Assembly (NCBI RefSeq): GCF_027257155.1
Contig: NZ_JAPWDU010000005.1
Span: forward strand, 1 to 64,000
DNA length: 64,000 nucleotides
Origin: Cerasicoccus sp. TK19100
GTDB lineage: Bacteria; Verrucomicrobiota; Verrucomicrobiia; Opitutales; Cerasicoccaceae
Direction of reading: 5' to 3'
Part shown: piece after piece, positions 1,418 to 62,322 of the stretch
Position numbering within the stretch: the first letter of the stretch is position 1
How the letters are laid out: each line of letters begins with the position of its first letter
Notes under the pieces: generated by a model
The model's database searches: none
Told to the model about the DNA's origin: nothing
What the model saw: only the letters and a program-made list of their open reading frames with translations
Position numbers and translations under genes: made by a program

Positions 1418-1463
1418 AAGTGGGTTATATAAAGCGTCTTACGTATGTAAGACAATCTCTATT

Positions 1464-1613
1464 TTGGAGTGAGCAAATTTTGGAGTGAGCAAATTAAAGA
1501 GAGCAAATTAAAGTGTCGATTTGTTAGGGGAGGGGGAGAAGCTTGGGTTTGCGCCTATTGCAAAATCACTTCACCCAACTCTTTAATCTTTAATTTGCTC
1601 ACTTTAACACTCC
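1464..1613. repeat. Word-repeat inverted element
   Basis: The left arm holds two direct copies of TGGAGTGAGCAAATT (1465-1479 and 1481-1495) and a third, degenerate copy ending in GAGCAAATTAAAG (to 1513). The right arm (about 1580-1613) is their reverse complement, TCTTTAATTTGCTCACT then ACACTCC. The right arm touches the stop codon of the next minus-strand gene at 1613. The central part (1515-1579) is a G-rich, unrelated loop. Confidence 0.75.
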
Positions 1614-2856: not shown

Positions 2857-2904
2857 GTTTTTAGCCGCGGATTGACGCGGATGGAACGCGGATTTTTTGG
2901 TGAG

Positions 2905-3057
2905 GGTAGGGCGCAGTCTCCTGACATGCCGATGCGTTGGATTAGCGTAGGCCGGTCTCTTTAGAGGCCGGCAGGTTGACGGTGCAGCAGACGGATGGCT
3001 GAAGCCAACCGCTTACGCCACTCCACTGATGCGGCTGTCTGGAGACTGCGCCCTACC
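2905..3057. repeat. Composite REPIN-like element with nested hairpins
   Basis: The outer arms are GGTAGGGCGCAGTCTCC (2905-2921) and its exact inverse ending at 3057. Similarity continues inwards for about 30 more bases with mismatches. Inside lies a second hairpin, GTAGGCCGGTCTC-TTTA-GAGGCCGGC (2947-2972), also led by GTAG. A third stem GGTTG/CAACC closes the middle. The folded single strand would be cloverleaf-like. It fills the gap between the ICMT-like gene and ferritin. Confidence 0.75.
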
Positions 3058-3068
3058 TTTAATGCCGC

Positions 3069-6245: not shown

Positions 6246-6274
6246 GTGTTGTTACCGCTTGGAGGGTTCTTTGA

Positions 6275-6418
6275 GGTGGCGGCCGATGTCCCTATCGGCC
6301 AGAGCAGCGGCCAATAGCTAGGGATATTTCAATAGACTTATCTGCCATAAGCTGCTCTCGCGAACTTATGGATGCTGGCAGCCGAGTCTCTGGCCGATAG
6401 GGATATCGGCCGCCACCT
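6275..6418. repeat. REPIN-like inverted repeat, family 1 copy A
   Basis: 144 bases with two 30-base inverted arms. The left arm begins AGGTGGCGGCCGATGTCC and continues CTATCGGCCAGAG (6275-6304). The right arm (6388-6418) is its inverse with one mismatch. Each arm is itself a hairpin (GGCCGAT/ATCGGCC). The spacer is about 83 bases. A second copy of the family lies at 55044-55188. Confidence 0.9.
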
Positions 6419-7175: not shown

Positions 7176-7358
7176 GATAATAGCGAAGGCCGAATGGGGA
7201 ATGGCGAATGTTTTATTTGGAATGGCGAATGGTGAATTTAGGATTGCGAATGGCGAATAGCTCAGGGCGAATCCCCGTGGCATGGAAAGTGGAATATCCT
7301 TCATTTCGGCATTCGCTATCCACAATTCGTCATTCGTTATTACTTATTCGCTATTATC
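7176..7358. repeat. Word-repeat inverted element between trmH and rpsU
   Basis: The outer ends are perfect 12-mers GATAATAGCGAA (7176-7187) and TTCGCTATTATC (7347-7358). The left half carries three exact copies of GAATGGCGAAT (7199-7209, 7220-7230, 7248-7258) plus degenerate ones. The right half is built from ATTCG and TTCGCTAT words in the opposite sense. It occupies most of the 267-base divergent gap. Confidence 0.8.
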
Positions 7359-31896: not shown

Positions 31897-31984
31897 CTGG
31901 AGGGCAACACTCCGTTGTTGCCACTACTTGGAACATTCAGCGTTAACTGGCGAGTGGTGGCAACGACGGAGCGTTGCCCTCCGG
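31897..31984. repeat. REPIN-like inverted repeat, GGAG family 2
   Basis: 88 bases starting four bases after the uup stop. The left arm CTGGAGGGCAACACTCCG continues TTGTTGCCACTACTT. The right arm (31952-31984) is its inverse with three differences in the first 25 bases, two of which are G-T wobble pairs. Each arm starts with GGAG followed by a hairpin GGCAAC/GTTGCC. The spacer is about 21 bases. Confidence 0.85.
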
Positions 31985-50545: not shown

Positions 50546-50617
50546 GCGGATTAAATTTTTGAGCAGCAGGTAAGAAAGGGAACGAAGCCAGACGGGCGTG
50601 TTCGCTTTTTTAACAGC

Positions 50618-50676
50618 AAGATCGGGAAGAACGGGAAGCGAACTCGTAGGATCTTTCCGGTCTTCCCGGTCTTCCT
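50618..50676. repeat. Word-repeat inverted element before fmt
   Basis: Left arm AAGATCGGGAAGAACGGGAAG (50618-50638). The right arm, ATCTTTCCGGTCTTCCCGG and TCTTCCT (50651-50676), is the inverse, with the word GGGAAGACC in two phases. It sits in the 263-base gap between the DUF4380-like gene and fmt. It has no T-run. Confidence 0.6.
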
Positions 50677-50771
50677 GTTTATACCTACGTTGGAATTGAT
50701 ATTATTCTTACACGTGGTTTCGCTATCTCAGCAACCTTCTGTTAAATAGTCCTATCCTCCGCTGCATTCGG

Positions 50772-50802
50772 CCTTTTTCCTTTAATCTTTTTCCTTTAAT
50801 CT
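50772..50802 (+). repeat. 31-nt pyrimidine-rich leader, copy 1
   Basis: CC followed by two tandem units of TTTTTCCTTTAATC (14 bases each) and a final T, ending six bases before the fmt ATG. An identical 31-nt tract lies at 61281-61311 before rnhC. It is not a Shine-Dalgarno site on this strand. Confidence 0.85.
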
Positions 50803-50808
50803 CCCTTC

Positions 50809-52487: not shown

Positions 52488-53426
52488 ATGGCAGCTTCGA
52501 AAAGCAGACTTGGCCGCGGCCTGGGCGGCATCATCGCCGGTGGCGGCGCAAAGAAAACGGCAACTAAAAAAGCCGCAACTAAAGCCGCGCCCAAGGCAGA
52601 ACCCGAGGCCAAGCCAGCACCCGTGGTTGCCGGGCCATACCGCGACATCCCGGTCTCGGCCATCGTGCCCAACCCATACCAGCCGCGGCGCGAAATGGAC
52701 CCCGCGCATGTTCAGGAGCTCGCTAATAGTATTTCCAGCGAAGGGCTGCTGCAGCCGATCGTGGTTCGCCCCAACAAGCAGAAGGACCAATATGAGCTGA
52801 TCGCCGGCGAGCGCCGTTGGCGCGCCCACCAGAAGCTGGGGCTCAAAACCATCGCCGCCCGCGTGATGGACGCCAGCGATACGTCGTCGGCTGTGATTTC
52901 ACTGATCGAAAACTTGCAGCGCGAGGGCCTGAATCCGATCGAAGAAGCTCTCGGCTATGCGAGCCTGATGAAGGATTTTGACCTGACACAGGAGGCGGTG
53001 TCTGACCGCATTGGTCGCCCGCGTGCCTCGATTGCCAACACTTTGCGTCTGCTAGCGCTGGATCGCGAAATCCAGGGTTACTTGGCCAAAGGCATGCTCA
53101 GCACCGGTCACGCCAAGGTGCTACTTGGCGTGGAAGACCCGGCCCAGCGCATCATTCTGGCCCGCCGCGCCATCGAGAGCGGCATGAGCGTTCGCGAGAT
53201 CGAAAAGCAGGTGAAGCGCATCAAGTCCGAGAGCAATTTGCGCAAAGACAACGCCTCCACTGACGACGCCTCGGACACCGTTGTCCGCGATCTGGAGAAG
53301 CAGCTTTCCAGCCGCCTGAATACCAAAGTCCACCTGAAACACACCGCAAAGAAGGGGCGTTTGATCATCGAATATTATGGTAACGATGACCTGCAGCGCA
53401 TCCTCGAACGCACGGGCTTGCAGTAG
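52488..53426 (+). CDS. parB: ParB/Spo0J partition protein, no parA adjacent
   Basis: 312 residues. A Lys/Ala/Pro-rich N-terminus leads to the ParB CTPase domain (VPNPYQPRREMDPAHVQELANSI, then GERRWRAHQKLG), followed by the HTH (IEEALGYASLMKDFDLTQEAVSDRIGRPRASIANTLRLL) and a C-terminal dimerisation segment (LEKQLSSRLNTKVHLKH). GERRWRA is the nucleotide-binding signature. The usual parA partner is missing nearby. I did not see a clear parS. Confidence 0.93.
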   Translation: MAASKSRLGRGLGGIIAGGGAKKTATKKAATKAAPKAEPEAKPAPVVAGPYRDIPVSAIVPNPYQPRREMDPAHVQELANSISSEGLLQPIVVRPNKQKDQYELIAGERRWRAHQKLGLKTIAARVMDASDTSSAVISLIENLQREGLNPIEEALGYASLMKDFDLTQEAVSDRIGRPRASIANTLRLLALDREIQGYLAKGMLSTGHAKVLLGVEDPAQRIILARRAIESGMSVREIEKQVKRIKSESNLRKDNASTDDASDTVVRDLEKQLSSRLNTKVHLKHTAKKGRLIIEYYGNDDLQRILERTGLQ

Positions 53427-53510
53427 AAGGTTCGAAAGTTCGTAGGTTCGAAAGTTGTTTTATCGAGCGGATCAACCTCCGGACCTTCAAACTTCCAAAC
53501 ATTCGAACCT
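53427..53510. repeat. Word-repeat inverted element after parB
   Basis: Left arm GGTTCGAAAGTT twice (53429-53440 and 53444-53455). The right arm (53483-53510) is built of ACCTTCAAACTTCC and ATTCGAACCT. The element starts directly after the parB stop. Confidence 0.65.
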
Positions 53511-53525
53511 AATAAAAAACCTTGA

Positions 53526-53560
53526 AACCGCCGCGTTGAACGCCCATTCTGCGCGGTTTT
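53526..53560 (+). terminator. Possible weak terminator before secG
   Basis: AACCGC-CGCG pairs with GCGCGGTT with one bulged C, followed by TT and CC. The T-run is short, so it may be only a hairpin. Confidence 0.3.
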
Positions 53561-53575
53561 CCAATTAACTCCCAC

Positions 53576-55043: not shown

Positions 55044-55188
55044 AGGTGGCGGCCGATGTCCTCATCGGGCAGAGCAATCACCTTAAGCGGTGCACGTTTC
55101 AAATCATGCATTCTGGTGATGCGTTTATCGCGGACTCATTAGTTCTTTTCGAATCGCCTCTGGCCGATGAGGACATCGGCCGCCACCT
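55044..55188. repeat. REPIN-like inverted repeat, family 1 copy B
   Basis: 145 bases. The left arm starts AGGTGGCGGCCGATGTCC and continues TCATCGG. The right arm is its inverse with one mismatch in 31. The central loop has short similarities to that of copy A at 6275. Compared with copy A, two bases in the arm have changed on both sides so that pairing is kept. Confidence 0.9.
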
Positions 55189-56507: not shown

Positions 56508-57149
56508 TTAGCCGCGCAAAATCTCGAAAAGCGCCTTGAGCTTGGCGGGGTCCTTGATGCCGGGTGCCGACTCGACGCCGCTATTGACGTCGATCGTTTC
56601 CGCGCCACTGGTCCGCACCGCCTCAGCGACGTTGTCCGGGGTGAGGCCGCCGGCGAGGATGAACCGCTTGTGCGAGTACATCGTGGCCCAATCGGCGAAC
56701 TGCTGCCAGTTGCCGGTTTGGCCGGTGCCGCCGTATTTATCCTTGTGGTAGGCGTCGATGAGGATGGTGTTAGAAAACTCCAGCAAGGTCTGCGGAAAGG
56801 GTTCGCCTGGCGGGATTTTCGGCGCGAGCCACAAGCGTTCCTTGCCCACGATGCCGCTCCACGCCGCGAGCGTGGCGAGGTTTACGTCGATATCGCAGTG
56901 AATCTGAAAATGGTCGAACCCGCAGTCGGCCCAGTCTTCGAGCTCGTCGGTGCCGGTGTTGACATCCACCATCACGCGCATGCCCGCAGGGATGCGTTGG
57001 CAGAGGTCCCACGCCTGGTCTCGCGTCACGGCGCGCGGTGACTTCGGGTAAACGATCATCCCGCAATAGTCCGCGCCCAAGTCCAGCACCGCGCTGATAT
57101 CGACACGGCGCGTCAAGCCACAGATTTTGATCTTTAGTTGCGAGTTCAC
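56508..57149 (-). CDS. trpF: Phosphoribosylanthranilate isomerase with GTG start
   Basis: 213 residues of TIM-barrel fold. KIKICGLTRRVDISAVLDLGADYCGMIVYPKSPRAV contains the family's N-terminal catalytic Cys and substrate loop. FILAGGLTPDNVAEAVR and IDVNSGVESAPGIKD bind phosphate. The only usable start is the GTG at 57149, and codons 2-5 (N-S-Q-L) lie in a repeat arm. No nearby trp genes. Confidence 0.93.
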   Translation of the reverse strand: MNSQLKIKICGLTRRVDISAVLDLGADYCGMIVYPKSPRAVTRDQAWDLCQRIPAGMRVMVDVNTGTDELEDWADCGFDHFQIHCDIDVNLATLAAWSGIVGKERLWLAPKIPPGEPFPQTLLEFSNTILIDAYHKDKYGGTGQTGNWQQFADWATMYSHKRFILAGGLTPDNVAEAVRTSGAETIDVNSGVESAPGIKDPAKLKALFEILRG

Positions 57150-57221
57150 AGTTTCGAGTTCAGGGGTGACGAGTGGTATTTACTACAAACTCGTAACTCG
57201 CAACTCGCAACTCCGAACTAA
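57134..57221. repeat. Word-repeat inverted element overlapping trpF start
   Basis: Left arm TTAGTTGCGAGTTCACAG and TTTCGAGTT (57134-57160), with the right arm (57188-57221) carrying inverse words AACTCGCAACT. It covers the GTG start codon and the first four codons of trpF and ends 3 bases before the stop of the next gene. Confidence 0.7.
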
Positions 57222-57224
57222 CTC

Positions 57225-61184: not shown

Positions 61185-61251
61185 CGTAGCACAGGCGTCT
61201 CGCCTGTGTAAATTAGTTGGATTGGTGAACAGGCGAGACGCCTATTCTACG
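61185..61251. repeat. REPIN-like inverted repeat, GTAG family
   Basis: 67 bases starting 7 bases after the murJ stop. The left arm CGTAGCACAGGCGTCTCG continues CCTGT. The right arm is its inverse with two mismatches. Each arm is GTAG plus a 7-base hairpin (ACAGGCG-TCT-CGCCTGT). The spacer is about 20 bases. Confidence 0.9.
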
Positions 61252-61280: not shown

Positions 61281-61311
61281 CCTTTTTCCTTTAATCTTTT
61301 TCCTTTAATCT
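61281..61311 (+). repeat. 31-nt pyrimidine-rich leader, copy 2
   Basis: Identical to 50772-50802: CC, then two units of TTTTTCCTTTAATC, then T. It ends 15 bases before the rnhC ATG. Confidence 0.85.
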
Positions 61312-61326
61312 TTTATCTCCCTCCTC

Positions 61327-62322
61327 ATGCCCAAGCGCAAGAAACAGCCAGAGCCCGAAGAAGAGGGACCCAAGAAAAAGACGCTCTACACGATTAAAAT
61401 CACCGACGAGCAGATGATGCTCGTTAAGGAGTGGTGCGAGAAGCGGCTGTGGGAATTTTACGCGGTCGATTACGCCTACTTCGGCTACAAGGGGGACCAG
61501 GTGAACATCGTCGGCTACGAGTCGGGCAAGCTCGTGGTGCAGGGCAAAAAGACCGAAGACTGGGTGACCTTCGTGCTCGAAGGTGAAATTACCCATGACC
61601 CCAAAATGGGCTACGACGAGGTCAACAACCCCGAGTGGTTCACTGATCACGCCGGGCTCGACGAGTCGGGCAAGGGTGACCTGTTTGGGCCACTGGTGTC
61701 GTGCTGCGTGATCGCCACGGGCGACATGGTCACCGAGTGGCGTGAAAAGGGCATCCAGGACTCGAAGAAAATCACCAGCGACAAGGCCATCCTCAAGCTG
61801 GATAAAATCATTACCGAGACCAAGGGCGTCGTCGTGAAGCGCATGTGCCTGCGTATGGCGAAATACAACGAGCTCTACACCAAATTTGGCAGTAACCTTA
61901 ACCGCCTGCTGGCCTGGCAACACGCCAAGTGCCTCGAAGCCGCGCTCGACGAAAAGAAGGTCAAATGGGGCCTGCTGGACCAGTTTTCCAAGCAGCCGCT
62001 TGTGCAGCGCGCTTTGACCAAGGACCACTACGCGGCGACTGAGTTCGACCTGCAAATGCGCACCAAGGCGGAGTCCGATCCCGTGGTTGCGGCGGCGTCG
62101 ATTTGCGCGCGCGCGGAGTTTGTCCGCCGCATGGCCGCGCTGTCCAAGGAGGCGGATATTCCGCTGGCCAAAGGTGCCAGCAAGAAAGTGAAGGATCAGG
62201 CCAAGGAGATCGTTAAAAAATTTGGCGACGCCCGCCTCGGCGATTTTGCCAAACTCCACTTCCGCACCGCCTTCGAGGCCCGCGGCCTTCCCGTGCCCGA
62301 GAAGAAGGTGTGGAAGGGGTAG
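61327..62322 (+). CDS. rnhC: Ribonuclease HIII
   Basis: 331 residues. The N-terminal TBP-like substrate-recognition domain (about 20-100) is followed by the catalytic domain with D112-E-S-G-K-G-D, the signature of HIII over HII. CLRMAKYNELY and the DQFSKQPLVQRALTKDHYAATEFDLQMRTKAESDPVVAAASICARAEFVRRM region hold the other acidic ligands. It cleaves RNA in RNA-DNA hybrids. Short Lys/Pro/Glu-rich start. No adjacent partner. Confidence 0.94.
   Translation: MPKRKKQPEPEEEGPKKKTLYTIKITDEQMMLVKEWCEKRLWEFYAVDYAYFGYKGDQVNIVGYESGKLVVQGKKTEDWVTFVLEGEITHDPKMGYDEVNNPEWFTDHAGLDESGKGDLFGPLVSCCVIATGDMVTEWREKGIQDSKKITSDKAILKLDKIITETKGVVVKRMCLRMAKYNELYTKFGSNLNRLLAWQHAKCLEAALDEKKVKWGLLDQFSKQPLVQRALTKDHYAATEFDLQMRTKAESDPVVAAASICARAEFVRRMAALSKEADIPLAKGASKKVKDQAKEIVKKFGDARLGDFAKLHFRTAFEARGLPVPEKKVWKG

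Follow-up and report, generated by a model that had tools for sequence, protein, structure and literature searches.

Intergenic inverted elements with arms of tandem words in Cerasicoccus sp. TK19100 are probably gene-less members of a cassette family carrying PF05635 or PF13366 genes

In Cerasicoccus sp. TK19100 the gap between the divergent genes trmH (SpoU family) and rpsU contains a gene-less inverted element, with no assigned strand, at 7176..7358 of the window (the whole 64,000 nucleotide stretch of DNA that was analysed), and it raises the question of what an inverted element is when its arms, here of GAATGGCGAAT type, are themselves made of tandem short words. The left arm (7176..7258, + strand) consists of imprecise heptads, GAATGGC, GAATGGT, GAATAGC and so on, for which TRF gives periods of 7, 21 and 28, and sequence reading and the inverted-repeat and tandem scan place the inverted words ATTCGCTAT, ATTCGTCATTCG and others in a right arm at 7308..7358 (- strand). 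The initial annotation reported exact 12 nt ends, GATAATAGCGAA (7176-7187) and TTCGCTATTATC (7347-7358), and three exact GAATGGCGAAT words, and all are present. The predicted free energy of the element folded as RNA is -73.9 kcal/mol, with z -4.75 relative to 200 shuffled sequences. Long stable stems of this sort favour the alternative that these are selected RNA elements, a transcribed stem-loop that regulates, terminates or is excised, in the way that RNase III excises the 23S rRNA intervening sequence (IVS), and whose arms stay complementary through compensatory selection as the words drift; the location of this element between divergent genes speaks against it. We think it probable instead that the elements belong, as gene-less and MITE-like members, to a family of small selfish cassettes.

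Such cassettes are seen in relatives. The word CACGAAGNNCACGAAGNNCACGAAG was found in 22 of the 288 genomes searched in the phylum, where it often forms inverted pairs (the reversed control gave one match), and in one of these genomes, G030, such words adjoin fragments of PF13366 genes; it was for this reason that PF05635 and PF13366 genes were tested for arms. PF05635 proteins are four-helix bundles, the family of the 23S rRNA intervening-sequence protein, and PF13366 (GxxExxY) proteins are PD-(D/E)XK nucleases. In relatives inverted tandem-word flanks were present at 28 of 30 PF13366 loci and 19 of 30 PF05635 loci, against 2 of 27 control loci of the SpoU family. Gene calls were crude and arm scores heuristic, and the thresholds were set after seeing examples; a cross-phylum set was fetched later and tested with cross-locus controls. 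It comprised 80 PF05635 loci from other genomes, obtained with an alignment of 11 proteins, and 11 plasmid loci, mostly cyanobacterial. Of these 89 were usable, and they span about 20 phyla or classes, with an archaeon and members of candidate phyla of bacteria among them; they are best matches rather than a random sample, and some are closely related (several Flavobacteriia, several Nostocales). Arms were found at 67 of the 89; the same score was reached by 2.3% of the pairings of a left and a right arm from different loci, and by 1.1% of shuffles. Of the 89 loci 72 have tandem words (4 expected), and among these period 7 is dominant (53 loci), with period 8 in 14. On the strand read towards the gene AG is in the word consensus of 96 of 111 arms (86%, where 71.5 or 64% are expected) and CT in that of 20, against 19 expected (18% and 17%), and since AG is above and CT at expectation it is specifically AG that is favoured on that strand. 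Over 21 genomes the number of cassette genes correlates no more than modestly with that of gene-less hairpins (Spearman 0.51, P 0.018, from 20-40 kb per genome), which counts against our preferred reading.

The arms of the other elements in the window can be compared with those of these cassettes. The initial annotation had four further inverted elements in the window, each with entirely different words, and all four are present; the words however are not unique to their sites, and the majority are found again in congeners and at other places in this genome. The element at 1455..1613 (no strand; 1464-1613 in the initial annotation) has the GAGCAAATTAAAG words of two PF05635 cassettes, L098 of this genome (G000:C7:34651) and L308 (G001:C7:142567), against which it scores 24.5 and 25.5 with a shuffle maximum of 13.5; the segment folded, 1455-1596, ended short of the element's end and gave z = -1.46. 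That at 50612..50679 (no strand; GGGAAGA(AC/CC) words of period 9; fold z = -6.16 for 50608-50684) has arms near-identical to those of the GxxExxY cassette L307 of this genome (G000:C7:46813), with a score of 25.5 and a shuffle maximum of 14.5. Immediately 3' of the parB stop codon, at 53427..53510 (no strand), is an element of GGTTCGAAAGTT words (fold z = -3.31 for 53424-53514) that scores 19 against the PF05635 cassette L114 of this genome (G000:C3:568143), the shuffle maximum being 14. The last, at 57134..57219 (no strand; GAGTTNC heptads; fold z = -2.99 for 57130-57224), has its best match in cassette L112, with a marginal score of 15.0 (shuffle maximum 11.5), and no strong gene-bearing partner.

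There are also one-armed arrays in the window. One at 50773..50802 (- strand) has two copies of CTTTTTCCTTTAATC, as in the PF05635 cassette L113 (G003:C2:88773; score 30, shuffle maximum 20), and CTTTTTCCTTTAATC recurs in an array at 61282..61314 (- strand), just upstream of a gene at 61327. A third, of GxxExxY type (GCCGCGGATTGACGCGGATGGAACGCGGAT; 2858..2896, + strand), adjoins a pair of REP-like palindromes. The arrays at 50773-50802 and 61282-61314 both lie just upstream of start codons, and the position of the former is kept in the congener G001.

The window elements thus have inverted arms of imprecise tandem words of 7-9 nt with 15-80 nt between them, and enclose no PF05635 or PF13366 gene. 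They are intergenic and not inside 23S rRNA, and no part of the window matched an Rfam covariance model at the gathering threshold. Three of the five inverted elements and one one-armed array share words with cassettes found in this genome or in a congener, at scores far beyond those of shuffles, and it is solely as putative gene-less relatives of cassettes, through arm words in common, that we have filed the window elements. For the element at 7176-7358 there is no gene-bearing cassette with matching words among the 80 loci sampled, the best score of 15.0 being equal to the shuffle maximum, and a DNA search of its own genome gave weak partial copies only; its assignment to the cassette family rests on its architecture and its orthologues and not on a cassette word match.

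Further inverted repeats with repetitive arms, for which the initial annotation proposed a scan of the genome, are numerous. The genome was sampled rather than scanned whole. Over 400 kb of this contig a strong inverted repeat coincides with a strong tandem run in 7 intergenic segments and in none of the shuffles, and in at least one of the 7 the inverted repeat is a REP beside a word array. The intergenic tandem periods that exceed shuffles are 7, 14, 21 and 28 and, in a few cases, 8, 9 and 23, and elements with CCACGAAGGACACGAAG and GCCACGGATGAACGCGGATG were also recovered.

The presence of REP-like palindromes in the window, and of 8 matches to Y1 transposases and one to a reverse transcriptase in the genome, might suggest that these are REP/BIME elements which RAYT (Y1) transposases mobilise, or that a genome-encoded reverse transcriptase moves them, and like REPs the word-armed elements are small intergenic palindromes of high copy number. 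We consider this very improbable. A REP palindrome is conserved in sequence within a genome and has no tandem words, and the GTAG tag of the conserved palindromes found near RAYT genes is absent here, the arms being tandem words. The REP-like palindromes form a separate set without tandem words. The initial annotation was right that neither REPs nor standard terminators explain the elements. These palindromes are at 2262-2388, 2905-3057, 6274-6418, 31899-31982, 55044-55188 and 61185-61251, and two are of the same family (AGGTGGCGGCCGATGTCC...). Furthermore G002, in which there is no Y1 or reverse transcriptase match, carries cassettes and about 50 dispersed words, and G005 has GxxExxY genes, again with no match to either. 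A reverse transcriptase or Y1 transposase as a required partner within the genome was accordingly rejected; a plasmid or a past host may have supplied one in trans.

The words of gene-bearing cassettes are also dispersed in the genomes of the genus, where they have expanded in a lineage-specific way. GGTTAAAGGTTAAAG, a word of the G002 cassette, occurs (allowing one mismatch) 50 times in G002 against 3, 8 and 5 times in its congeners, and GAGCAAATTAAAG, from the cassette of this genome (G000) and G001, occurs 9 times in G000, 14 in G001, not at all in G002 and once in G003. For GATTAAAGGAAAAAG, a word of the G003 cassette, the counts are 45 in G000, 30 in G001, 4 in G002 and 51 in G003. All three words are absent from G004-G009, which are six members of the family from three other genera. 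The correspondence between cassette words and dispersed words is clear for two of the words and loose for the third, GATTAAAGGAAAAAG, which is abundant in G000 and G001 though the words of their own cassette at the site compared are different, and this counts against our preferred reading.

We also read about 40 loci, in three genomes, of a family with words AGGAAAA (A) and AGATTAA (B). The arms have arrangements such as AABA and BABB, the loops mostly differ, and the copies are dispersed, with precise ends and non-homologous flanks. In this genome two elements, C8 and C12, have the same arms and 82 nt loops that agree at 99%; their flanks are unrelated, and the junctions fall at the arms. The C12 site is orthologous to a site in G003, which points to C8 as the newer of the two. 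No target-site duplication was seen at C8 and C12, the one clear duplication, and this too counts against our preferred reading. Four gene-less elements of G003 (L285, L286, L290 and L294) contain a further inverted repeat, GGAGTGCGCCAGCCCTCTGGCGCTTT, inside the loop.

These data bear on the origin proposed by the initial annotation, in which replication slippage and strand switching build each array from local sequence with no mobile element involved. Heptad number does vary between copies, the two arms of a locus resemble each other more closely than they do the arms of other loci, and the same gap in a congener may hold entirely different words, all as local creation would have it. Within one genome, however, dozens of unlinked sites carry the same words, which gene-bearing cassettes have as well; there is a tie to two gene families across many phyla, and an identical loop occurs at two unrelated sites. 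Creation of each element at its own site is not supported, since words are common to cassettes and dozens of dispersed sites and one element was copied to an unrelated site. As a sole origin it is already disfavoured; we regard it as improbable.

Comparison of orthologous sites shows that the two arms change together, or that elements with different words occupy one and the same gap. The initial annotation envisaged that words might differ between strains at the same site, and between congeners they do. The gap at 57150-57224 has an inverted element in both G000 and G001, with entirely different words. At 50546-50808 the two genomes have different elements, yet a one-armed CTTTTTCC array in common, while at 53427-53575 the elements are of the same word family and have diverged. 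At 2857-3068 G000 has an array and the gap in G001 is only 20 nt. In the trmH-rpsU gap G002 has an inverted element of related words, G003 no more than a short array of different words, and G001 a one-armed array beside another gene; this gene, next to a GAATGCC array, was not counted as a cassette, being without a matching right arm. An orthologous PF05635 cassette could be followed through five genomes, in which the protein is recognisably the same and the arms match only within a genome (own arms score 20.5-30 and arms of different species 7-13), with the exception of G000 and G001, which have words in common. In another orthologous pair, L293 and L301, the arms are kept and the loops have diverged. 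Three GxxExxY cassettes, L128 (G005), L131 (G004) and L145 (G008), apparently have the same downstream gene and different arm words, which looks like a further case of joint change.

Joint change of the arms, and their retention in L293 and L301 while the loops diverge, are also in keeping with selection on an RNA stem, which is the rival that we rate highest, though we still think it unlikely. One congener is without inverted arms in the trmH-rpsU gap and another gap is without any element, several arms are inexactly complementary (BABB facing AABA), and one-armed arrays occur, all of which argue against such selection.

A GC-rich hairpin abuts the outer end of many arms (L267, L278, L281, L284, L285, L291, L292 and L299). 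In one family of elements this was so at 19 of 65 boundaries, against 3.3% at gene ends, and at the cassettes of relatives it was so at 13%, against 2.8% in shuffles; at the cross-phylum loci the figure is 2.2%, and at that rarity the hairpin was dropped as a general target signal. In the orthologous pair L281 and L282 its position is the same and its sequence differs, and the orthologue of L269 in G003 has one arm only, the left arm, loop and GC-rich hairpin being absent.

Of the encoded proteins, a PF05635 model (pLDDT 96.7) has its best match in Xcc0516 of X. campestris, at 46% identity, and its next in Avd, the pentamer of the ribonucleoprotein of diversity-generating retroelements, with TM about 0.8. 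The GxxExxY proteins keep a D...ExK motif in 29 of 30 and have a PD-(D/E)XK-like fold, for which the best matches, which are weak, are to Cas4 and exonucleases.

In the cassette model that we favour, a full cassette has a left arm of about four imprecise tandem words, in most cases heptads with AG at the core, then a PF05635 or PF13366 gene, then the inverted right arm. The two arms form a long hairpin, and it is probably they that the encoded protein, or partners of it, would recognise. Gene-less copies, with the same arms and unrelated loops, would spread in trans by a step that uses the arms; we infer mobility as the cause of spread, with recognition of the words by the protein. Slippage, which the initial annotation invoked, is a reasonable explanation for change in heptad number (ABA and AABA), and the strand switching that it coupled with this, taken as template switching from arm to arm, would be a good reading of joint arm change; as an origin the two are not supported. 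Copying of one arm from the other, or selection on the stem, may thus hold the arms alike, so that the words drift and still match. A more extended reading, to which we would give less than an even chance, is that a pentameric four-helix bundle (Avd-like) or a Cas4-like nuclease, encoded between the arms, reads about four copies of a lineage-specific heptad. The elements would then form a large class of mobile elements, so far unrecognised and present in many phyla, whose recognition depends on short words that each lineage chooses afresh; the words of cassettes and gene-less copies would change together, with the short tandem repeats (STRRs) of cyanobacteria and the heptamers of Xanthomonas as gene-less members.

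With regard to known systems, the elements resemble MITEs in being small, gene-less and dispersed, with terminal inverted repeats in common with gene-bearing relatives, and differ in that they have no known transposase, no target duplication was seen and the tandem-word arms differ between elements. The 23S rRNA IVS of Coxiella and Leptospira, with its S23p or four-helix-bundle ORF, likewise has a PF05635-family gene between terminal inverted repeats, which in Coxiella are cut by RNase III in vitro, and has been termed selfish with mobility unknown (PMC4990558); that PF05635 is the family of the IVS protein, and the cutting, also count in favour of RNA elements. The cassettes differ from it in their intergenic location, tandem-word arms, many gene-less copies and lineage-specific words. 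Rehm et al. 2015 (PMC4692102) described dispersed intergenic heptamers, GGGAATC in Xanthomonas and GGGGA(C/T)T in Nostoc PCC 7120, with a preferred unit number of four and two arrays in inverted orientation in 70 cases (Xcc) and 75 cases (Xac). These are like our words, and X. campestris has the PF05635 protein Xcc0516 (PDB 2GSC), but they were read there as quadruplex-forming and not associated with mobile elements, with no flanked gene linked to them. The STRRs of Calothrix and Nostoc and the TAACTGA repeats (MacGregor 2015, PMC4679880) are again intergenic tandem heptamers, and the sampled cyanobacterial PF05635 cassettes have heptamer arms; unlike the arms they are direct repeats, and were given a regulatory reading. 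Inverted heptamer pairs (PMC4692102), heptamer repeats (PMC4679880) and a PF05635-family gene between inverted repeats (PMC4990558) were therefore already known. Among open-access papers we found none that joins word repeats with PF05635 or GxxExxY genes.

Heptamer repeats between bacterial genes have been described since the 1990s with their cause unexplained, and four-helix-bundle and GxxExxY genes are widespread with no known role. If the two are arms and cargo of one kind of element, this would provide a testable explanation for the heptamer repeats and for both gene families. The differing words would then become a question of recognition between protein and nucleic acid, and the elements would offer a natural case of two arms rewritten together.
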